Assembly: GCF_900111605.1 (NCBI RefSeq)
Contig: NZ_FOIA01000010.1
Location: forward strand, 1-64,000
Direction: 5' to 3'
Length of the DNA stretch: 64,000 nucleotides
DNA from: Nitrosomonas marina
GTDB lineage: Bacteria > Pseudomonadota > Gammaproteobacteria > Burkholderiales > Nitrosomonadaceae
Of the stretch, positions 6,196-16,854 are shown piece after piece. A model generated the notes under the pieces. The model did no database searches. It worked only from the letters and a program-made list of their open reading frames with translations, and had not been told where the DNA came from. The position numbers and the translations under genes are program-made. Within the stretch, counting starts at the first letter, position 1. Each line of letters opens with the position of its first letter.

Positions 6196-6225
6196 CCTGC
6201 GATTGTATTCTTTCTGTTGCCACAG

Positions 6226-6267
6226 CAAAGGCAAAGGCAAAGGCAAAGGCAAAGGCAAAGGCAAAGG
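6226..6267 (+). repeat. Hexanucleotide tandem repeat, seven copies of CAAAGG
   Basis: Seven perfect head-to-tail copies of CAAAGG span 42 bp with no mismatch, between rnpB and a decayed GST gene. No gene can be supported over it: the open frame that crosses it would read Gln-Arg repeats and would start inside rnpB. A perfect short repeat like this is expected to vary in copy number by slippage. Confidence 0.95.
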
Positions 6268-6445
6268 CGACCTCAATGTGTAACCGGGTTTTTCCAGAAT
6301 TTGACATCCTTTAAAAATGAATGAAATTCAATTCACTGAGATCGCATCCCATATTACTTGCAATAAACGAGTGAATGGGTTGAATTCCTGCATCAGTATG
6401 CATTGTGCTATTCAATTATCACGCTAATTTGAAAAAGGAAAACTC

Positions 6446-6716
6446 ATGCTCAGGCTATATCAGTTCGAACGTACCCGGGGTATTCCCAGCTTGAGTCCAT
6501 TATGTTGTGAATTGGGAACTTACATACGCAGTGCGAAATTGATTTTGAAATAATTTCCGCACTGCCGCCTGGTGCACCCAAAGGAAAGCTGCCCTAAAAT
6601 ATATCGGTTGCCCCATTGAGTCGCCGCTCAAGGCGCATGGTTCGGCAAAGAATAATTTTAAAGATTCCATTGCGCGGATTAGACAGAATTACGATTCTGA
6701 TCTGCAGTCAGTCTGA
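6446..6716 (+). pseudogene. Remnant of a glutathione S-transferase gene (N-terminal domain)
   Basis: A good ribosome-binding site (aaaaaggaaaa) precedes ATG 6446. The first 30 codons read MLRLYQFERTRGIPSLSPL and onward, closely resembling the thioredoxin-fold start of a GST subfamily that begins LYQFPRTWGIPNLSPFC. The frame stops at 6551-6553 after 35 codons. In the adjacent frame the text continues as IDFEIISALPPGAPKGKLP, which is the next piece of the same domain, so one frameshift near 6535 explains the break. A stop follows at 6595-6597. Beyond it a third frame keeps weak GST-like text (YIG, DSIARI, NYDSDLQ) until 6716, overlapping the tail of the next gene. The C-terminal domain is absent. 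This is a decayed gene, and the family assignment comes from memory of family sequences. Confidence 0.75.
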
Positions 6717-7718
6717 TGTATTGCAAGCAGCCAGCGATTCGGCGCCAGAGAAAACACCTGTATACGCGATACCATCGTTGCCAATGGCGCCGCGAAACAT
6801 GCCGCTTGTATTAAAGCGCATCGTGTAATCACCCTGTGCGTTCAGCAGAATTAATCCTCCTTCCCCACCGATGGTTGCTATTTCAGCCAGCGTATGATCA
6901 GCTGCTTCTGTTAAAGGCATGTTTTGCAGTTTGATCCGCGCTGCAGTATTGAATCCGGCTACGGTACGGATAAACATCTCTCCAGTACCAGTTGCAGATA
7001 CCGCGACTGAATGATTGTCTGCGTACGTGCCAGCTCCAATAATGGGTGTGTCACCGACACGCCCGAATCGCTTGTTTGTCAATCCGCCGGTAGATGTTCC
7101 GGCAGCAAGATTGCCGTGGCAATCCAGTGCTACAGCACCGACAGTACCATGTTTATCATTGTTTTCTTCCCAGCTATCCGTTTCCAAATCATGATCAAGT
7201 GCGATACGTTCTTTTGTGATGGCCTTTTGCAGCTGATCCCAACGGCGCTGGGAGTAGAAAAATGACGGCTCAACGATTTCAAGCGCCTGCTCGGCTGCAA
7301 ATTCTTCCGCACCACGCCCTATCAACAGCACATGACTGCTGTGCATCATGACTGCTCGTGCGGCGCGAATCGGGTTACGAATAGTGGTAACCGCTGCGAC
7401 CGCACCTGCCATATGCGTAGCGCCGTCCATGATTGATGCATCCAGTTCATTATTTCCTTCGTGACTGAATACCGCGCCTTTGCCTGCATTGAATACAGGA
7501 GAGTCTTCCATGATTACGATCGCAGCGACCACGGCATCTATACTGCTACCCCCGGCAGCGAGTACGGCATGACCTGCATGCAGTGATTGAGTCAATACCT
7601 TCATGAATGTGCGCTCGCGTTCCGGTTTCAGTTTATCTCTTTGAACAGCGCCTGCACCGCCATGTATTACTAATCGTAATGGAGCGTTATTATTTGACCG
7701 GATATTTGTTAAAGTCAT
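6708..7718 (-). CDS. iaaA: Isoaspartyl peptidase / type 2 L-asparaginase
   Basis: An N-terminal-nucleophile hydrolase that cleaves isoaspartyl dipeptides and, more slowly, asparagine. The protein is 336 residues. It shows the opening VIHGGAGAV (about 17-25), the AGKGAVF and ELDASIMDG blocks, and the autoprocessing site HGTVGAVALD, where Thr192 would become the N-terminal nucleophile after self-cleavage into alpha and beta chains. The substrate-binding GGLTNKRFGRVGDTPIIGAGTYA follows, seen as its parts GGLTNK and GDTPIIGAGTYA. There is no signal peptide, so the enzyme is probably cytoplasmic. It is divergent from the carbamoyltransferase/asparagine-synthase cluster, which may hint at linked amide metabolism. 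Confidence 0.93.
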   Translation of the reverse strand: MTLTNIRSNNNAPLRLVIHGGAGAVQRDKLKPERERTFMKVLTQSLHAGHAVLAAGGSSIDAVVAAIVIMEDSPVFNAGKGAVFSHEGNNELDASIMDGATHMAGAVAAVTTIRNPIRAARAVMMHSSHVLLIGRGAEEFAAEQALEIVEPSFFYSQRRWDQLQKAITKERIALDHDLETDSWEENNDKHGTVGAVALDCHGNLAAGTSTGGLTNKRFGRVGDTPIIGAGTYADNHSVAVSATGTGEMFIRTVAGFNTAARIKLQNMPLTEAADHTLAEIATIGGEGGLILLNAQGDYTMRFNTSGMFRGAIGNDGIAYTGVFSGAESLAACNTSD

Positions 7719-8138: not shown

Positions 8139-8603
8139 ATGCATCTATTTCAAACGAAAGTAGATTTAAAAAAGAAAAGCATATCTTTTGGATTGTTTAC
8201 CGCTGTAATTCTGTTTTGGCAAAGCTGTGCAGGACAGGCCGCTGCTGTCGCATTTATGAATGACCGGCATATTACAAACAATACCGGTTACGTGCTGCTC
8301 AACTGGCAAAACAAGGAACTGATACCTGTTGAGTTGCAGCAAGCCGCACAATCCAGTTTCGACAATCCGATCACGTTATACGAAGGAAAAAACAGCTCAT
8401 TAATGCTCTCGGGTTTGGCGGACGGCACTTATTATTACCGTATTCGTGCTCATCAAAAACAACCTGGCACATGGTCCGATACAGTGAGGCTGGATGTTGC
8501 TCATTATTCACTTGCCAGAGTCTGGTTATTGTTTGTTGCTGGCGCACTTGTTTTTCTGAGTGTTGCCTGGGTAATCGTCAGGGGTGCAGCAGATGAATCA
8601 TGA
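8139..8603 (+). CDS. Fibronectin-type-III-like protein with C-terminal membrane anchor
   Basis: A 154-residue protein of unknown function. A hydrophobic stretch at about 17-37 (FGLFTAVILFWQSCAGQAAA) looks like a signal peptide or first membrane segment. Residues about 45-120 have the pattern of one fibronectin type III domain: GYVLLNWQN, a central strand LMLSGLADGTYYYRIRA, and a final WSDTVRLDV strand. A single transmembrane helix at about 127-148 (VWLLFVAGALVFLSVAWVIV) ends just before the C-terminus. The folded domain should face the periplasm. The gene overlaps the symporter gene by 11 bp, so the two are translationally coupled and this protein may be an accessory subunit of that transporter. 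That role is inferred from position only. Confidence 0.8.
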   Translation: MHLFQTKVDLKKKSISFGLFTAVILFWQSCAGQAAAVAFMNDRHITNNTGYVLLNWQNKELIPVELQQAAQSSFDNPITLYEGKNSSLMLSGLADGTYYYRIRAHQKQPGTWSDTVRLDVAHYSLARVWLLFVAGALVFLSVAWVIVRGAADES

Positions 8604-10020
8604 TGCAGTTTTTTTGTCCCCTTCGCTCGGTTGGTCTTTGCTGGTTATTATAAGCGTTATATGGATAGCATTGGGCACTTACTGGGGACGCAAGAACAAG
8701 CACTTTGAGCAGCATGCATTGGCGGGACGCAATGTCGGCCTGACGCTGGCATCTGCAACAGCAGTAGCTACCTGGATCACATCGAATACAACCATGCTGG
8801 CACCACAATTTGCGCTGCAGATGGGTATTTGGGGCATGCTTGCATACAGTACAGCTGCTTTTGGGCTGTTTCTTTTTGCGCCGATGGCAAAACGGATACG
8901 CGCGCTAATGCCACATGGTTATACCTCCGGCGATTTTATTCGTCTGCGCTACGGCAAGAAAGCATGGAGTATTTTTTTGCTGTTTACGCTGTTTTACAGT
9001 CTGGCCTGGCTGGTCAGCATGGCAATGGCAGGCGGCATCTTGCTAAATGCCTTGTCCGGAATTTCCTATGAGTATGGAATGAGCATTCTGCTGCTGGTAT
9101 GTGTCATTTATACTATGCGGGGCGGCCTATATGCCGTTATCGGCACTGATTTCATACAAAGTCTGATCATTCTGGCGGGTATTGTAATTGTCGGATTTGC
9201 AGTTTTGAATCATGTCAGTATAGAAACAATTCACGCCAATCTCACAGCTGAAAAGCCGATGCTGCTGAATATCATGTTTCCGGTTGCGATCATGGTTGTC
9301 TTTAATAATCTGCTGTTCGGATTGGGCGAAGTGTTTCATAACAATATCTGGTGGAGCAGGGCATTTGCTTTTCGAGAAGGTGTGGGCCAAAAAGCATTTC
9401 TTATTGCCGGATTTATCTGGTTGCCAATACCGGTTGCCGCCGGATTTATCGCTTTGGCATCCGGTGCACTGAATGTTGCGGTACCCAGCGCTGATATGGT
9501 TGGACCGCTTGTTGTTGCTAATGTGCTGGGCACGACTGGCGCAGTTGCAATTTTTATAGTTGTTTTTTGTTCCCTGGCATCCAGTATCGATAGTCTGCTG
9601 GCCGCAACGTCCGATCTTATTACTGAGGACATTTACCGCAAGATAGTTTATCCAAAGGCCAGTAGCGAGCAATTAAAAAAAGCTGCACAAATAGTAACGC
9701 TTTTGCTGGGCCTTACTGCATGGCTGGTTTGCCTGCCACGTATTGGAACACTGGCTACGGTTCTTTTTTTCGCTGGCCCGCTTGTTGGCAGCATGATCTG
9801 GCCGATTATTACCGGATTGTACTGGAAGCATGCAACATCTAGCGGCGCGATCTGCGGCATGTTACTTGGAAGCGCGCTTGGGTTGCTGGCCTACTTTCAG
9901 ATTGGCTGGTATATCGCTACGCTGGTAAGCGCTGTTGCATCGATGGCGTGTGTTATTTTCTTTGCCTACTGCTATCCGGCCAACTATGACTGGCATCAGT
10001 TAAAAGAAAAACAGGCGTGA
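8593..10020 (+). CDS. Sodium:solute symporter (SSS family), urea/ureide-type candidate
   Basis: A Na+-coupled membrane importer with about 13 hydrophobic helices. From ATG 8593, preceded by caggggtg, it is 475 residues; GTG 8584 is an in-frame alternative. The early block GRNVGLTLASATAVATWIT and the later SSIDSLLAATSDLITEDIYR are in the places of the SSS substrate and Na2 sites. To my eye the ATAVATWITSNTTMLA and TSGDFIRLRYG stretches resemble the DUR3-like urea branch more than the proline (PutP) branch, but the substrate cannot be read from sequence. Its stop codon overlaps the start of a 39-residue membrane peptide, followed by carbamoyltransferase-like and amidotransferase genes, which suggests uptake of a nitrogen compound for that pathway. 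Confidence 0.9.
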   Translation: MNHDAVFLSPSLGWSLLVIISVIWIALGTYWGRKNKHFEQHALAGRNVGLTLASATAVATWITSNTTMLAPQFALQMGIWGMLAYSTAAFGLFLFAPMAKRIRALMPHGYTSGDFIRLRYGKKAWSIFLLFTLFYSLAWLVSMAMAGGILLNALSGISYEYGMSILLLVCVIYTMRGGLYAVIGTDFIQSLIILAGIVIVGFAVLNHVSIETIHANLTAEKPMLLNIMFPVAIMVVFNNLLFGLGEVFHNNIWWSRAFAFREGVGQKAFLIAGFIWLPIPVAAGFIALASGALNVAVPSADMVGPLVVANVLGTTGAVAIFIVVFCSLASSIDSLLAATSDLITEDIYRKIVYPKASSEQLKKAAQIVTLLLGLTAWLVCLPRIGTLATVLFFAGPLVGSMIWPIITGLYWKHATSSGAICGMLLGSALGLLAYFQIGWYIATLVSAVASMACVIFFAYCYPANYDWHQLKEKQA

Positions 10021-10139
10021 TGTTTTCAACGGAATTTCTTGCATATCTGGTATATGGTGCACTGGGATGGTGTGCTGTTACAGGCGTCATTCTGATTATT
10101 ATGCTACTGAAAGAATGGAGAAAGGGTAATATATGGTAA
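10020..10139 (+). CDS. Small single-pass membrane protein (39 residues)
   Basis: ATG 10020 overlaps the symporter's TGA stop (TGATG), and the TAA at 10137-10139 overlaps the carbamoyltransferase start codon at 10133. The peptide begins MFSTEFLAYLVYGALGW, has one hydrophobic helix over residues about 7-30, and ends in a basic, tryptophan-containing tail KEWRKGNIW. Overlapping both neighbours means it is very unlikely to be a chance frame, because ribosomes would pass straight from one gene to the next. Small partner subunits of this size are known for some SSS and other Na+-coupled transporters, so a transporter subunit is a reasonable guess. I do not recognise a named family. Confidence 0.8.
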   Translation: MFSTEFLAYLVYGALGWCAVTGVILIIMLLKEWRKGNIW

Positions 10140-11224
10140 TTAAAACCGCAGCAAAAGTAGAGCATATTGTTCAAAGCGAACTGAAAACAAATCTGATCGG
10201 GCTTTGTCCTGAACCAGAAGGATTAATCAAGTTTCAGCCCAGAATTTGTTTGCAGAAACTTAAGGAACTGACATACAGATCCATTCTTTCCGCCGATCTT
10301 TTCGATACAGAAATGCTGAGAGAACTGGCCAAAGTTGCTGCTTATCTGCAGCTGAAAAAAATCAGCGCCGATAAAGTGCTAAACGACAAAATTATGGCAA
10401 CAGCATTTTTCGAGGCCAGTACACGGACGCGGCTTTCTTTTGAGAGCGCCATGCTGCGTCTTGGTGGAAAAACGCTAAGTGTCGCGGAAGCCGCTTTAAC
10501 GGGTGAGGCAAAAGGTGAAAAGCTGCTGGATATTGGACAAATGTTTAACAGTTATGCCGATATTGTAGTCATACGTCATACCCAGCAAAAAGCAATTCAG
10601 GAATTAAGCGAATATTTGCGCATTCCCATCATCAATGGTGGAAATGGTTCAGACGAACACCCAACGCAGGCGCTCGCTGACTGGTATGCGCTGCTGAAAT
10701 GGAAGCCAGATCTCATGCTCGGCGCAGCTTCTGAAGAACAGCTGCACCTCGGCATTGTCGGTACACCCGGAAGCATGCGAACCGTGAAGAGTTTTTTGAT
10801 ACTGGCGCTATTGTTCAGACACAACATCAGCCAGATTACCATCGTTTCTGAGATGGCTGATCCCCTGGGAGTTGAAGTACAGTCATTTTGCGATTCTAGT
10901 CCGATACCTATCGACATCAAAAATGATTTGCAGGAGGTGGTCGGCGAGCTTGATGTCATTTATATGAATTCGATCGCCTTTCTGGGTGATGGATACCGAA
11001 CTCTTGGATCCCGATTTAAATTGGATAAGGAGTCCAGACTTAAAAAAGGCGCCGTTGTTTTACATCCTCTGGCACGAAAAGATGAGCTTGATGTCAGTCT
11101 GGATCATACCCGGCACAATCTTTATTTTAATCAGGCGGATGGCGCTGTTTTTATTCGTCAGGCACTGTTATTGATTGTTTTTGGCCGTCTCGAGCAGGTG
11201 CTTCCCGATCATTTGATCGAATAG
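10133..11224 (+). CDS. Aspartate carbamoyltransferase-like enzyme with altered amino-acid site
   Basis: A 363-residue carbamoyltransferase. The carbamoyl-phosphate site is intact: FFEASTRTRLSFE at about 92-104, AKGEKLLD at 126-133 with the mobile-loop lysine, RHT at 148-150, and HPTQALAD at 176-183. The C-terminal HPLARKDEL at 311-319 also matches aspartate carbamoyltransferase (PyrB). The second domain keeps the arginine equivalent to PyrB Arg167 (SMRTVKS). However, the aspartate loop that should read TRVQKER after DILYM is replaced by NSIAFLGDGYRT after DVIYM (279-290). The beta-carboxylate ligands (Arg229, Gln231 in E. coli numbering, aligned from memory) are therefore missing. There is also a 35-residue N-terminal extension. 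The amino acceptor is probably not aspartate. It is not next to other pyrimidine genes. Confidence 0.88.
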   Translation: MVIKTAAKVEHIVQSELKTNLIGLCPEPEGLIKFQPRICLQKLKELTYRSILSADLFDTEMLRELAKVAAYLQLKKISADKVLNDKIMATAFFEASTRTRLSFESAMLRLGGKTLSVAEAALTGEAKGEKLLDIGQMFNSYADIVVIRHTQQKAIQELSEYLRIPIINGGNGSDEHPTQALADWYALLKWKPDLMLGAASEEQLHLGIVGTPGSMRTVKSFLILALLFRHNISQITIVSEMADPLGVEVQSFCDSSPIPIDIKNDLQEVVGELDVIYMNSIAFLGDGYRTLGSRFKLDKESRLKKGAVVLHPLARKDELDVSLDHTRHNLYFNQADGAVFIRQALLLIVFGRLEQVLPDHLIE

Positions 11225-11278
11225 TAAATTACAGAGCCAGAAAATTATTTGAATAATAAACGAACAGAGGTATAACTT

Positions 11279-13240
11279 ATGTGTGGTATAGCCGGTGTAT
11301 GGAGCCCATTCAGATACGATAAGAATAACGACAAATATATCCATCAAATGGCCGCACAGTTGCTGCATCGAGGCCCGGATGGCCGCGGGTTCCATTTCGA
11401 TACAAAAGATGGCATTGCCATGGCGCACACACGCCTGTCGATTATTGATCTGAATTCTGGAGAGCAGCCGATACATGATTCGCAGGCCCAGTTGACACTG
11501 ACCGCTAATGGAGAATTTTATGATTACAAACGTATTCGCGGATTGTTAACGGCAGAAGGGTTCAGTTTTTCTACCAAATCAGACAGTGAAATAGCATTGA
11601 AGCTTTATCGCAAATACGGATTATCATTTGTGGATCATTTGCGTGGTGAATTTGCCTTTGCCTTATTTGATGCAAAAAAACAGCAACTGATTCTGGTGCG
11701 TGACCGGTTTGGTATTCGCCCGCTCTTTTATCATATTACGGGCGAGGCTGTTTTTTATGGCTCGGAAATCAAATCACTTCTTGCCCACCCGCATGTTCCA
11801 AGTGATATTTCAAAAAAGGCGCAATTGCATCAGATGATGCAGGTCATGGTGCCTGGCGATTCGCTGTTTGAAAATATCCATGCTTTAAAACCCGGGCACA
11901 TGCTGATCATCGGGAAAGCTGGTGGCCGTATTTCAGTCACTGAAAAATGTTATTGGGATGCTGAATTTCCGTTAAACGGTGAGCATGCAGTGCGCAGTGA
12001 TCAGCAACATATAGAGGCGGTGCGTGAAACACTGATTGAATCCGTAGCGTTACGTCTGGAAGCTGATGTGCCGGTTGCCTGCTATCTCTCGGGTGGTATT
12101 GATAGCTGCTCAATCTTGGGCATGGCATCATCCATTCAGCAATCACCTGTTAAGGCATTTACAATCAGTTTTGATGATGAGCGCTATGATGAAGCTACCA
12201 TCGCAACTGAAATGGCCGAAAAATGTAATGCAGATCAGGATATTTTACGAGTTTCAGCATCCGACCTGTATGGTAAGAATTTTGAAAAAGCGATATGGTA
12301 TTCAGAGCGTACTTTTTATAACACGCTTGGTATTGCCAAAATGCTGATGAGCAAGCATGTTACTGACAATCATTTTAAAGTTGTTATCACTGGTGAAGGC
12401 GCAGACGAATTTTTTGGGGGATATGCCGCTTTTAAACGCGACATGTTTATTCATGACCCCGCTTATCAGACTGAAGCAATGGAAGCGCTGTTGCAAGCCA
12501 GCAATCGAGTTTTCAGTGGCTCTGTACTGGCAGAAAAAGCTGTTTCACATCCTGCATTCGAGGAAGTCATGGGATTCACGCCTTCATGGATACAGCCCTG
12601 GATGCTGGTGCTGGAACAGGTCAAGCCATTGTTGTCAGAAACATTTCTTGACCTATTAGGGGAATATGATCCGATAGCTGCTATTGCTTACAGTCTGGAT
12701 AAATCGAAACTCGATGGGCGGCATCCGCTTGATAAAGCGCAGTACAGCTGGATCAAGACCATGCTTGAAGGCCAGATCCTGAACTGGGGCGGTGATCGCG
12801 TTGACATGGCTAACTCGCTGGAATCTCGCCCGGCATTTCTCGATCATCATGTCACGGAACTGGCCGCTGATCTGCCGCCACATGTGCGTATACGCAATGG
12901 CGTAGAAAAATGGGTATTGCGTGAAGCAATGAAACATCTGTTGCCCGAGGTACTGTACAACCGCGAGAAATTTGCATTCATGGCCCCGCCGGCCCATACA
13001 GATCAAAATAAAACACAAGCCATTCAGGATCTAATCGATAAATATCTATCACCACAGCGCGTAATGCAAGCCGGTATCTTTAATCAACGAGCCATAAAAA
13101 AATTGTATAAAAACCAGGATGTTTCCGAGGATCATACAATGAAAACGCGAAAAGACATCATTCTCAATCATGCGATTGGATTGCATGCCATGAATGATAT
13201 CTTTATGAGGCGGCCTGCTACTGAAGAGTGTCTGGCTTGA
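11279..13240 (+). CDS. asnB: Asparagine synthase-like glutamine amidotransferase
   Basis: A 653-residue, two-domain enzyme. The N-terminal class II glutaminase starts MCGIAGVW, with Cys2 as nucleophile, then LLHRGPDG, TRLSIID and NGEFYDY. The C-terminal synthetase domain has the ATP pyrophosphatase loop LSGGIDSC (serine 271 onward), the FTISFDD block and GEGADEFFGGY. All catalytic features appear intact, so it should use glutamine ammonia and ATP to amidate a carboxylate. Asparagine from aspartate is the default reaction. Paralogs of this length often act in dedicated biosynthetic clusters. It lies 54 bp after the carbamoyltransferase-like gene with aggtataact before the start, and both probably act on the same unknown substrate class. 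Confidence 0.92.
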   Translation: MCGIAGVWSPFRYDKNNDKYIHQMAAQLLHRGPDGRGFHFDTKDGIAMAHTRLSIIDLNSGEQPIHDSQAQLTLTANGEFYDYKRIRGLLTAEGFSFSTKSDSEIALKLYRKYGLSFVDHLRGEFAFALFDAKKQQLILVRDRFGIRPLFYHITGEAVFYGSEIKSLLAHPHVPSDISKKAQLHQMMQVMVPGDSLFENIHALKPGHMLIIGKAGGRISVTEKCYWDAEFPLNGEHAVRSDQQHIEAVRETLIESVALRLEADVPVACYLSGGIDSCSILGMASSIQQSPVKAFTISFDDERYDEATIATEMAEKCNADQDILRVSASDLYGKNFEKAIWYSERTFYNTLGIAKMLMSKHVTDNHFKVVITGEGADEFFGGYAAFKRDMFIHDPAYQTEAMEALLQASNRVFSGSVLAEKAVSHPAFEEVMGFTPSWIQPWMLVLEQVKPLLSETFLDLLGEYDPIAAIAYSLDKSKLDGRHPLDKAQYSWIKTMLEGQILNWGGDRVDMANSLESRPAFLDHHVTELAADLPPHVRIRNGVEKWVLREAMKHLLPEVLYNREKFAFMAPPAHTDQNKTQAIQDLIDKYLSPQRVMQAGIFNQRAIKKLYKNQDVSEDHTMKTRKDIILNHAIGLHAMNDIFMRRPATEECLA

Positions 13241-13311: not shown

Positions 13312-16300
13312 TTATCCTTGTTCCATTGGCTTCTGAGTCGGCCGGACTCCTGCAGTATCTGATCGTGAGACGATGGTGATTTCTTCAGGCAGGCTTCTGA
13401 TATGAATATCCTGGTGTGGGAAGGCGATTTCAATTGCCGCCTCACGGAAACGTCGGTCGATTTCCATAAGTAGATCATGCCGTGTTTCCAGAAGCAGGTC
13501 GGGCTCTGGTATAAAGATTCTAAGTTCGAAATTCAATGAACTGTCACCGAAAGCCACAAAGCGTGCACTGGGTTCAGGATCTTTGAGTACATGTGGATGA
13601 TCTTGTGCGATAGATAACAAAATATCGTTGGCGAGCTTTGTGTCAGAACCGTATACGATTCCGACAGGAATGAGAATCCGCAAAATGGAGTCAGACAAAG
13701 ACCAGTTGATAACCTGCCCGGTAACAAACTCCTTATTGGGAATTATCAGTTCCTTCCTGTCCCAGTCAGTGACCGTGGTCGCGCGCATTTGAATGCGCGA
13801 AACTTTGCCGCTGATATTACCAAGTGTCACCACATCACCGACACGTACCGGGCGCTCAAACAGAATAATCAGACCCGAAACAAAATTGGCGAAAATCTCC
13901 TGCAGTCCAAAGCCAAGTCCAACTGTTACCGCTGCTGCAAGCCACTGCACTTTTGACCAGCCGATGCCAAGCGCACTAAATGTCATGGCAAAACCTACGA
14001 TAATGATAATGTAGCGAACAATGGAGGAGATTGCATAGCGGCCGCTTGGTGTAAATGGCAAACGCTGCAGTATGACAATTTCCAGCAATCCGGGAATATT
14101 GTTGCTGATAAAAAAAGTCATCATGAAAATAACGATCGCCAGCAGTATGCTGGCCAAAGTTATCGGTACCAGGTCCGTTATTTCAGCGCCACCCTCTGTT
14201 TGAGTGACTTCTGTATTCCACAGAACCACATCGTTCAGAATGTTGAAAGCTGGTAAAACCTGCGCCCAAATCAGCGCAATTCCGATGATAATCGTGAACC
14301 AGTGCGCTGTATTAAGCAGCTTCATGGTCTGCGTGCTGATGGCATCGACATCCAGGCCATCTTGCTCAACATTGATTTGATCGCCGCTTGTGTCGGCAGC
14401 TTTGGAGGCATCATCTGATTGCGCCTGTTCAGCCTGTGCAGCAAATTTTTTTCGCCATTGCTCGATCGCCAGCTTACGCTGTTCAATATTTAACCAGCGT
14501 ATCAGCAGAGCTTTGCCAATAATCACCGCAAAAACCAGCAACAGCGAGTTGATAATCAGCAGCGACAATTGTCCGGCAGTATACATATAGCCTGCGGCTG
14601 CGATGATGGTTAGCACAAAGGGTGTAATCAGCAGACTTGGAAACCATACGCCGGCCAGTCTGCTGATCCAGCCCTCGGCATTTTTGTCCAGATAATATTT
14701 CAGCAATCCCTTTTCAGGATGCATTAAACGATAAACCAGTACAGTTGTCGTTGCCATCAGTATGAAAAAAACCAGTCGCCCCAGAGAATCATGATGTGCT
14801 TCCGTCGGCTGTTCCTGTGTCACGACAAACACAAAGACCAGCGGTAAAGTTGCAGGAAGAAACCAGGCAAGCTGCTGTCTAGTTAACGCCATACTTTCAT
14901 GTTTCCAGCGAAAATGTAATTCACCAAGCCCTTCCTTTCGGCACAAATGACTCAACAGCAGACCCGAAAACAACAAATACGCCAGTGCGGCAAGGCCGCT
15001 GCCAATGGCAACAGCAAAAGTGGAATCAGTTTCGATTTGCTGGATGCGCCAGGCGATCAGGAAAATCAGTGACGGCCAGGCGAGTGCCATCAGTACTGTT
15101 ACCACAACGGCCCAAAGCGTGTCGGTAAACCGGGCTTTACTGAGTTTGGTGACATAGCGCCCAAGTACTGATAATTTCAATTTTAATAAGCGTTGCATCA
15201 ACAGCAACGCTATAGTGAAGAGAAGGAACGGCAGAATTACCAGAAAATTTTTTTTGACATCCTTGGCCACAAGCGATGCTGTTTGCAGCCAGGATGTAGG
15301 ACTGAAAAGCCAGGTCGCAGCTGCCCCCAAACGCTGAATATCCTGCAATTGAATTATCGGGGCGCTCTGGATCCAGAGAATGCGGGTATCGATAAACGCT
15401 TTATACTCGCTGATTAAGCCAATAAATTTGAGCTCGTGTTCCAGAATCGGATAAAGCTTCGTTTCGAAATAAACGTCATAAGCGCTGATCAGTTCATCCA
15501 GATAATCATTCTTTTGACTGTCCAGCGCTTGATACACAGCTTTTTGCAGTTGGTTGCGATCAGGTTCGGGAAGCTCGATTTTGGTATTTTTAATAAGCCG
15601 GGAAGCTTCAAAATCAAGATCAATCAATTCAAGCAGGCGATCTTCAAGTTCAATCCGTCGCAGCTGCACCTGATTGATTTCCTTGCTGTACGTTTCGATT
15701 TTTTTTTCATGGGTATCAATATCAGGCAGTTGCTTACGATCATTGCGCAGTTTTAACCCGATAGCGTTTGTCAGACCAGTCTGGTTTATTTTTTCCCGGA
15801 TCCGGTCATAGTTGCGTTGTGTTGCTGTTAATGCAAGATCGATACGTTTTTTTTCTTCGCTTAATAATGCACTGTTTGCCGTGATGCTTGCCAGTTCTGC
15901 TGCAAGTTGTCTGTTTTCATCCAGAATCGCGCGAACCAGTGGATGAGCAGTATCGGCTGCCTCGCTTGCGGTATCGGCTATCTGTTTAGCATGTTCGGCC
16001 GCTTCGGCCCGCCGGCGATTCATGATTTCTTCAAATACATTAAAATTGCGCTCCGCAATCAACACATCACGTTCCGCAACATGCCGTTGTGCGCGCAACA
16101 ATTCCCGCTGCTGATTATAACTGCGATCTTCGAGTTCAAGCTCCTGAATCAGCTGTTGCAGAAAATCGATTTCCATACCCTGCACAGTTTTCTGGGCGTC
16201 GCTGAGATGTTCTGCTGCCGGATCGGAAATGGCAGCTGTTTTTTGTTTCAACTCCTCAATCCGGGTGCGCGCTAATTTGATTTCTTCTTCGATTTTGGGT

Positions 16301-16854
16301 TGTCGTTCAGCACGTCGGGTGATTTCCTGCTCGATATCTGTTCGCGTTTTCCGGGCATCCGCCAGAATTTTTCTAACGGATTCAAATTGTAATTCAAGTT
16401 TGTCCAACGGCAGCTTCAGGTCTATATTATCAGTATTTAATTCCTCTTTTTGCAGCGGTGCATCCAGGGTTCGTTCAAGGGTTCTTAGTTGTTGGGGCGC
16501 ATTCTTGACAGCATTGACATAATATAATGCACGATTTGCCGACTCGATACTTTTATGTAAAAAATCATGAGCCTGACTTAATGAAGATAGCTCAGTCTGC
16601 TGTTGAGAATTTAACGAGTCTATTTTTTTTAAAGTTGTAATTCGCGCTTCAACATCTTTCAGTGTATGACTGAAATGATCCTGTTTCTTTTTTAGCGTCG
16701 TTTCAATATCTGTGTACGAACTGCCATTACTGGCAGCAGATATCGTGCTGTAAAGGAAGAATAAAACCAGCAGATACATGGTGCACGGTAAGCCCAATAC
16801 ATGGGATCTGCGAGTTCTGCGCTGGAGCAGTGAGAAAATGGAAGCAGTATTCAA
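13312..16854 (-). CDS. mscK: MscK/KefA-type mechanosensitive channel
   Basis: A 1180-residue member of the MscS superfamily that opens under membrane tension to release solutes during osmotic downshock. A signal peptide or first helix at about 25-43 is followed by a very long periplasmic region (to about 490) rich in heptad-like coiled coil (many ELEDR, QQELLR-type runs). Multiple membrane helices lie at about 530-900. The MscS pore module occupies the last 230 residues, with VTVGLGFGLQEIFANFVSG as pore helix, RPVRVGDVV and RATTVTDWD as the beta domain and IIPN after it. Length and layout match MscK rather than the short MscS. It converges with the asparagine-synthase-like gene. Confidence 0.93.
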   Translation of the reverse strand: MNTASIFSLLQRRTRRSHVLGLPCTMYLLVLFFLYSTISAASNGSSYTDIETTLKKKQDHFSHTLKDVEARITTLKKIDSLNSQQQTELSSLSQAHDFLHKSIESANRALYYVNAVKNAPQQLRTLERTLDAPLQKEELNTDNIDLKLPLDKLELQFESVRKILADARKTRTDIEQEITRRAERQPKIEEEIKLARTRIEELKQKTAAISDPAAEHLSDAQKTVQGMEIDFLQQLIQELELEDRSYNQQRELLRAQRHVAERDVLIAERNFNVFEEIMNRRRAEAAEHAKQIADTASEAADTAHPLVRAILDENRQLAAELASITANSALLSEEKKRIDLALTATQRNYDRIREKINQTGLTNAIGLKLRNDRKQLPDIDTHEKKIETYSKEINQVQLRRIELEDRLLELIDLDFEASRLIKNTKIELPEPDRNQLQKAVYQALDSQKNDYLDELISAYDVYFETKLYPILEHELKFIGLISEYKAFIDTRILWIQSAPIIQLQDIQRLGAAATWLFSPTSWLQTASLVAKDVKKNFLVILPFLLFTIALLLMQRLLKLKLSVLGRYVTKLSKARFTDTLWAVVVTVLMALAWPSLIFLIAWRIQQIETDSTFAVAIGSGLAALAYLLFSGLLLSHLCRKEGLGELHFRWKHESMALTRQQLAWFLPATLPLVFVFVVTQEQPTEAHHDSLGRLVFFILMATTTVLVYRLMHPEKGLLKYYLDKNAEGWISRLAGVWFPSLLITPFVLTIIAAAGYMYTAGQLSLLIINSLLLVFAVIIGKALLIRWLNIEQRKLAIEQWRKKFAAQAEQAQSDDASKAADTSGDQINVEQDGLDVDAISTQTMKLLNTAHWFTIIIGIALIWAQVLPAFNILNDVVLWNTEVTQTEGGAEITDLVPITLASILLAIVIFMMTFFISNNIPGLLEIVILQRLPFTPSGRYAISSIVRYIIIIVGFAMTFSALGIGWSKVQWLAAAVTVGLGFGLQEIFANFVSGLIILFERPVRVGDVVTLGNISGKVSRIQMRATTVTDWDRKELIIPNKEFVTGQVINWSLSDSILRILIPVGIVYGSDTKLANDILLSIAQDHPHVLKDPEPSARFVAFGDSSLNFELRIFIPEPDLLLETRHDLLMEIDRRFREAAIEIAFPHQDIHIRSLPEEITIVSRSDTAGVRPTQKPMEQG

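Follow-up and report, generated by a model that had tools for sequence, protein, structure and literature searches.

In the window, the whole 64,000-nucleotide stretch of Nitrosomonas marina DNA analyzed here (contig NZ_FOIA01000010.1, positions 1 to 64,000, from a genome assembly of 92 contigs totaling 3,489,905 bases), an open reading frame (ORF) check confirmed five plus-strand ORFs at positions 8139-13240. These form a cassette that encodes a putative transporter, a carbamoyltransferase, and an amidotransferase:

8139..8603, + strand: fibronectin type III (FN3)/immunoglobulin (Ig)-like membrane protein, modeled with a signal helix, a seven-strand domain, and a C-terminal transmembrane helix.
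8593..10020, + strand: Na+:solute symporter of the sodium:solute symporter (SSS) family, PF00474; ATG at 8593, with a GTG at 8584 also possible.
10020..10139, + strand: single-span membrane peptide of 39 amino acids (aa), Trp-ended, with a small Trp-ended hydrophobic ORF kept at all 80 loci described below.
10133..11224, + strand: aspartate carbamoyltransferase (ATCase)-like carbamoyltransferase with a putatively altered acceptor site; PF02729, PF00185, site residues, and predicted structure.
11279..13240, + strand: AsnB-like glutamine-dependent amidotransferase; Asn_synthase and GATase_7 domains, active-site motifs kept.

The initial annotation, made from the sequence alone, described the genes as packed with overlapping ends, which holds for three of the four junctions. 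The ends of the FN3-like protein and symporter genes overlap, the ATG of the peptide shares one base with the symporter stop, and the carbamoyltransferase gene starts within the end of the peptide gene, but the two enzyme genes are separated by a 54-base gap. A promoter and terminator scan gave no signal, with 8 promoter-like sites versus 12.2 in shuffled sequences and 6 terminator-like sites versus 5.1.

Conservation of this gene order, which the initial annotation had named as a check, was assessed in a contig scan with the window carbamoyltransferase, in which the best 80 of 94 related stretches were used for locus counts and membership was scored by tblastn with the window proteins (genomes and loci carry our own G and L numbers). 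Of the 80 loci, 72 have all five genes in this order, and six of the eight incomplete loci are cut by a contig end. The symporter and the carbamoyltransferase were present in 80/80 loci and the amidotransferase in 78/80, the remaining two (L107 and L110) stopping at a contig edge. A relative of the FN3-like protein lies beside the symporter in 74/80 loci; four others start at a contig edge (L047, L076, L078, and L109), and L070 and L094 gave no tblastn match despite sufficient room. The 39-aa peptide itself was matched in 44/80 loci, and a small hydrophobic Trp-ended ORF stands between symporter and carbamoyltransferase in every locus, against a background of 99 of 3033 small forward ORFs in these loci that share the peptide's traits, cassette ones included. 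The window carbamoyltransferase shares 98% identity with its N. marina Nm22 counterpart and 81% with the N. aestuarii Nm36 one, and the 80 loci span Pseudomonadota, Cyanobacteriota, Planctomycetota, Verrucomicrobiota, Spirochaetota, Bdellovibrionota, and Myxococcota, with the cyanobacterial, spirochaete, and bdellovibrio cases being one metagenome-assembled contig each. Record titles suggest a marine or soda-lake origin for many of the carriers. A plasmid search with the carbamoyltransferase gave no match at E 1e-60. The five-gene unit is real and conserved, and the co-conservation of its genes is more than chance.

Co-occurrence was evaluated in 369 genomes drawn evenly from the class, the window genome included. 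The carbamoyltransferase was found at E <= 1e-70 in 23 genomes and the symporter at E <= 1e-100 in 22, every one a carbamoyltransferase carrier; the sole carrier without a symporter (G139) is 81% complete. The amidotransferase reached E <= 1e-150 in 24 genomes, 22 of them carbamoyltransferase carriers. Its matches in the two non-carriers (G197 and G293) scored 590 and 509 bits, versus 899-953 for full-length matches in other carriers and 1173 for the window protein, and the carrier missed by the threshold (G301) holds a partial gene beside the carbamoyltransferase in a short fetched locus. Association with the carbamoyltransferase gave Fisher p values, which ignore shared ancestry, of 1.6e-34 for the symporter and 4.5e-32 for the amidotransferase. 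The symporter lay within the short fetched flanks, which end before the FN3 gene, in 18/22 carriers (window genome excluded). Independent scattering of the genes among relatives, the outcome that the initial annotation held to speak against a common pathway, was not seen, although the transporter genes stand apart from the enzyme genes in three fetched genomes (G382, G166, and G302), where the symporter is located elsewhere and each time has both an FN3 relative and a peptide ORF ending in Trp next to it.

Within the genus, the carbamoyltransferase was found in only 1 of 36 congeners (G026, 81% identity), the remaining 35 giving at best E 7.6e-21. In a tree of 48 of 111 family sequences, in which a long branch makes both the root and the position of PyrB unreliable, the Nitrosomonas proteins grouped with an Oscillatoriales sequence at a support that is not strong (88/64), within a well-supported set holding Scalindua, spirochaete, and bdellovibrio sequences (98/96) together with Alphaproteobacteria, and apart from the 22 other gammaproteobacterial rows. 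This placement, together with the patchy spread, suggests horizontal transfer of the cassette. Two genomes of the same taxonomic order as the window genome (G043 and G049) carry ATCase-like genes (L006 and L007; 29-32% identity, E ~1e-32) with scores intermediate between those of the cassette family and those of ordinary PyrB matches.

The carbamoyltransferase matches PF02729 (OTCace_N, 3e-38) and PF00185 (OTCace, 3.2e-11), both over cut-off, but fails the PyrB model TIGR00670 (180.7 bits versus a cut-off of 236.95). Its AlphaFold2 model (mean predicted local distance difference test score, pLDDT, of 88.2, with loop 282-287 under 50) resembles ATCases with Z up to 37.4 and 30-33% identity to the top rows. 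We aligned 111 carbamoyltransferases (the window protein, 80 from the loci, and 30 others) and used E. coli ATCase numbering. The equivalents of S52-T53-R54-T55, K84, R105, H134, Q137, and R167, which we take to comprise the carbamoyl-phosphate residues and, in R167, the reader of the alpha-carboxylate, are invariant wherever a letter exists. In contrast, the position equivalent to R229, which presumably reads the side-chain carboxylate of aspartate, is Ser in 63/110 and Ala in 47/110 sequences, whereas the host PyrB has Arg. Relative to the host PyrB, the loop that follows is shortened by about 7 residues. The P268 equivalent is Ala in 109/110, and Asn279, beside the R229-equivalent position, is invariant in 110. 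The window enzyme thus shares the fold (Z ~37) and the carbamoyl-phosphate site of PyrB and differs in these acceptor-side features and in its TIGR00670 score. The initial description of an enzyme lacking the aspartate site is accordingly right for the second carboxylate and wrong for the first. Since the carbamoyl-phosphate residues and the R167 equivalent are kept while the R229 equivalent is lost, we infer that the acceptor is an alpha-amino acid offering its alpha-carboxylate and a neutral side chain; the site residues do not single out glutamine.

The amidotransferase carries Asn_synthase (6.5e-84) and GATase_7 (3.6e-39) domains. The 18 aligned amidotransferases all retain Cys2, the SGGIDS loop, and GEGxDE, so both half-reactions should be functional. 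It fails the model TIGR03104 (311.7 versus 570.1 bits), which we take to describe an AsnB-type enzyme amidating an N-blocked glutamine toward the uncharged osmolyte N-acetylglutaminylglutamine amide (NAGGN). The presumed likeness to NAGGN synthesis thus lies in an AsnB-type enzyme acting on an N-blocked glutamine, and the difference in the score below the TIGR03104 cut-off and in the partner, here a carbamoyltransferase. This strict partnership argues for an acceptor other than aspartate. It is highly improbable that the two enzymes are an ordinary duplicated PyrB and asparagine synthase that happen to lie beside a transporter: the amidotransferase does clear a generic asparagine-synthase cut-off, but conservation, co-occurrence, and the site changes all speak otherwise, and the host genome has a separate PyrB (L002), which passes TIGR00670 at 299 bits, and a separate ArgF (L001, behind an aminotransferase ORF), which passes its own cut-off. 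The case that the initial annotation regarded as refuting, an aspartate-using enzyme in a genome devoid of another pyrB, is hence not what is found in this genome. Degenerate copies of pyrB and asnB were also considered and rejected, as the active-site motifs checked are intact.

Of the transporter part, the symporter matches PF00474 (SSF) at 100.2 bits versus a gathering threshold of 22.8 (E 1.5e-28) and falls under the PutP and PanF equivalog cut-offs. The fibronectin-like character proposed for its neighbor has weak sequence support (Pfam E 0.0031 at best, under the Pfam cut-off) and is better seen in the predicted structure, in which a signal helix is followed by seven strands and a C-terminal helix, and for which Foldseek returned Ig and FN3 domains at low TM-scores. 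The 39-aa peptide belongs to no family in Pfam or NCBIfam and is probably a symporter subunit. Together, the FN3 protein, the SSS permease, and the small peptide would form a dedicated three-part Na+ symporter. Import of a compound was the role originally assigned to it; a Na+ symporter is borne out, and its cargo may be a recaptured product, which strict co-occurrence with the enzymes suits, although precursor uptake or sensing would suit it as well. A cell-surface or signaling system, with a modified amino acid as the sensed cue or exported cargo of the FN3 protein and symporter, seems very unlikely: the FN3-like domain is predicted to lie outside the membrane and the amidotransferase resembles the XrtA/PEP-CTERM enzyme, though under the cut-off of its model TIGR03108 (373.2 versus 816.9 bits), but no exosortase or polysaccharide genes recur among the flanking families viewed.

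Recurrent neighbors were found by clustering 540 flanking ORFs. A hydantoinase/carbamoylase-family hydrolase lies in 53/80 loci (tblastn, query loci included, three matches being partial at 167-309 residues) and an isochorismatase-fold amidase in 23/80 (tblastn, query loci included). The top Protein Data Bank (PDB) match of the carbamoylase-family hydrolase is an N-carbamoyl-L-amino acid hydrolase, and the second-best model for these proteins, the N-carbamyl-L-glutamate amidohydrolase ErtE, is not reached at its cut-off. For the amidase, N-carbamoylsarcosine amidohydrolase is among 28 PDB matches, and the nearest models, including biuret amidohydrolase and RutB, lie far under cut-off. All seven fetched neighborhoods (five assigned to Ectothiorhodospira as described below, plus those of G302 and G139, which belong to other families) share the order carbamoylase-amidase-carbamoyltransferase-amidotransferase. 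The two hydrolases could reverse both steps, carbamoylation and amidation. They also bear on a quite doubtful alternative, in which a nitrogen-rich ureido compound is made or imported as a nitrogen store and its ammonia recovered through the hydrolases, perhaps with the carbamoyltransferase running in reverse toward carbamoyl phosphate. The adjoining hydrolases in many relatives and the dedicated symporter would suit such salvage, but the ATP-using amidotransferase always accompanies the carbamoyltransferase, which points to synthesis; no carbamate kinase appeared among the recurrent flanking families viewed, a gene for which no direct search was made; and no hydrolase of the window genome exceeds the cut-off of the carbamoylase-family model NF006771 (best 62.3 versus 399 bits).

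A carbamoylated, alpha-amidated amino acid, the expected product of a carbamoyltransferase and an amidotransferase, is already known in carbamoylglutamine amide (CGA), a salt-protective compound of decades' standing that is reported from Ectothiorhodospira marismortui in the available parts of PMC1224877 and PMC3857566. CGA is known as a compound and not as a gene system, and its presence in Nitrosomonas is a prediction. The accessible text of PMC7824335 names CGA as a possible solute and gives no genes for it; we found no published genes for CGA and no description of the cassette in the open-licence literature, in which a subscription paper could be missed, and the name N. marina is absent from the literature matches listed for its solutes. 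Photosynthetic reaction-centre genes were found in 2 of 22 cassette carriers tested (G166 and G382), both of one genus. All ten genomes of this genus carry the carbamoyltransferase (the match in G435 being partial) with the amidotransferase adjoining, and all ten carry HiPIP; the mature HiPIP of G434 is identical to PDB 1hpi over 71/71 residues, an entry that we take to be the E. vacuolata protein. Ectoine synthase was found in none of the ten, in a scan that gave no match in a control genome, with a model that elsewhere matched 4 of 61 genomes, and BetA exceeded its cut-off in six, fell under it in G166, and was absent from G382, G430, and G432. For comparison, the part of PMC7824335 available describes Ectothiorhodospira as lacking ectoine synthesis, and E. 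mobilis and E. marismortui as lacking the choline route; a HiPIP structure paper stands in the reference list of PMC5439954, where the PDB code is absent from the text available. Because of the reaction-centre genes, the identity to 1hpi, and the ectoine-synthase and BetA pattern, we concluded from these sequence markers that the genus is Ectothiorhodospira; the genus known to produce CGA would thus carry the enzyme pair in 10/10 genomes assigned to it. In G435, the carbamoyltransferase (L173, 6669-7741) is split over two frames, the match covering the last two thirds and a separate 147-aa ORF holding the beginning, which is either a frameshift or a sequencing error.

Further context is consistent with an osmotic role. 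Neither of the two cassette carriers in the genus sample (the window genome and G026) yielded an ectoine synthase, and two other congeners did, a split that fits an alternative solute in cassette carriers without proving it. Convergent with the cassette lies a large mechanosensitive channel gene (window 13315-16854, - strand; MscS_TM, 3.6e-84). A 93% match to it adjoins the cassette in N. marina Nm22 (L035), and the N. aestuarii locus (L034) has no match, so the surroundings of the cassette differ there. A mechanosensitive-channel gene also follows the unit in L168 and L170, and L171 holds a 59-residue match. A MarR-type gene was matched by tblastn in 7/80 loci, two of them query loci, and upstream of the enzyme genes in four of the seven fetched neighborhoods. 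As far as the text available of PMC7876524 goes, ectoine gene clusters come with MarR-type EctR1/CosR regulators, and the cassette likewise has putative solute-synthesis genes with a nearby MarR-type gene in some genomes. The chemistry differs, and the regulators are set side by side by MarR type and not by kinship: the MarR-type gene of L087 matched only general MarR proteins in the PDB, and its kinship to EctR/CosR is a suggestion.

Taken together, the seven-phylum conservation, the near-perfect co-occurrence of the three main proteins, the separate PyrB and ArgF, the site residues, the neighboring hydrolases, and the occurrence of both enzymes in a genus with reported CGA lead us to favor, at a rough probability of 0.6, a compatible-solute unit that makes and recaptures CGA by means of a glutamine carbamoyltransferase, an alpha-amidating amidotransferase, and a Na+ symporter; the adjoining channel genes (window, L168, and L170) and the ectoine-synthase pattern in the genus add to this interpretation. 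The carbamoyltransferase would use carbamoyl phosphate to carbamoylate L-glutamine at its alpha-amino group, giving carbamoyl-glutamine, whose alpha-carboxylate would be amidated by the amidotransferase to yield CGA, and the symporter complex would retake leaked CGA with Na+. When salinity falls, in hosts with the extra hydrolases, the amidase would remove the 1-amide, and removal of the carbamoyl group would fall to the carbamoylase. Substrate, product, transport direction, and osmotic role are deduced here from the genes, their conservation and co-occurrence, the site residues, and the neighbors, and on these grounds the product is most likely CGA or a close ureido-amide used as a compatible solute. 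The carbamoylation and amidation to a ureido-amide envisaged in the initial annotation thus gain from the conserved unit, the separate PyrB and ArgF, the reverse-step hydrolases, and the pair in the CGA genus, with the chemistry itself still deduced; among the roles it offered, an osmolyte is favored over a signal or a pure nitrogen store.

Several points weigh against this assignment. In the available part of PMC3857566, CGA comes from one organism so far, as a minor solute that gave no Raman signal. Ectothiorhodospira was assigned by markers, and E. marismortui is not pinpointed among the ten genomes. All four carbamoylase-family hydrolases scanned pass NF006771, labeled allantoate amidohydrolase (and also TIGR01879), and the amidotransferase passes the generic asparagine-synthase model TIGR01536 (417.9 versus 267.1 bits), a broad model that does not fix the substrate. 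The proposed connection to salinity draws on the names of the organisms and on neighbor genes. Lastly, extracts of Rhodopirellula baltica DSM 10527 held sucrose, glutamate, trehalose, and mannosylglucosylglycerate (MGG), with CGA not among the solutes in the accessible text of PMC3694870, and R. baltica strain BR-MGV carries the cassette (L087); DSM 10527 may lack the cassette, may not express it under the conditions used, or may use it for a different product. An asnB gene, RB12191, from the R. baltica stress transcriptome (PMC2754498, available in part) could not be tied to the cassette and was not used. These R. baltica solutes bear on another alternative, rather unlikely in our view, in which the same chemistry acts on a different acceptor and yields the ureido-amide of another neutral alpha-amino acid (e.g., asparagine) as osmolyte or nitrogen reserve. 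The site residues, which argue against a second carboxylate without singling out glutamine, are compatible with it, as is the lack of a CGA report for R. baltica in the text at hand, but CGA is the ureido-amide known from a genus with the pair in 10/10 genomes.

A broader form of the CGA interpretation, toward which we lean a little less firmly, makes CGA a widespread compatible solute and nitrogen-rich reserve whose cassette has spread by horizontal transfer to at least seven phyla, with marine ammonia oxidizers and an anammox lineage among the hosts. Jointly with this, a pyrimidine-type carbamoyltransferase would have been re-tooled for glutamine, an AsnB-type enzyme would carry out the alpha-amidation, the Na+ symporter would work with the FN3 protein and with the 39-aa peptide as a subunit, and an amidase/carbamoylase branch would recycle the product in many hosts. 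If true, this would link genes and enzymes, as well as a transporter and a degradation pathway, to a solute for which we found none in print, and a compound reported from one purple bacterium would become predictable from genomes in several phyla. It would also correct likely misannotations as aspartate carbamoyltransferase and asparagine synthase, and suggest that organisms subsisting on ammonia make a solute with four nitrogens.

An Asparaginase_2-family gene (window 6711-7718, - strand; 1.3e-105) lies upstream of the cassette and is oriented away from it. Between this gene and a TolC-like ORF, positions 6225-6268 consist of 7.3 perfect copies of the 6-bp unit GCAAAG.

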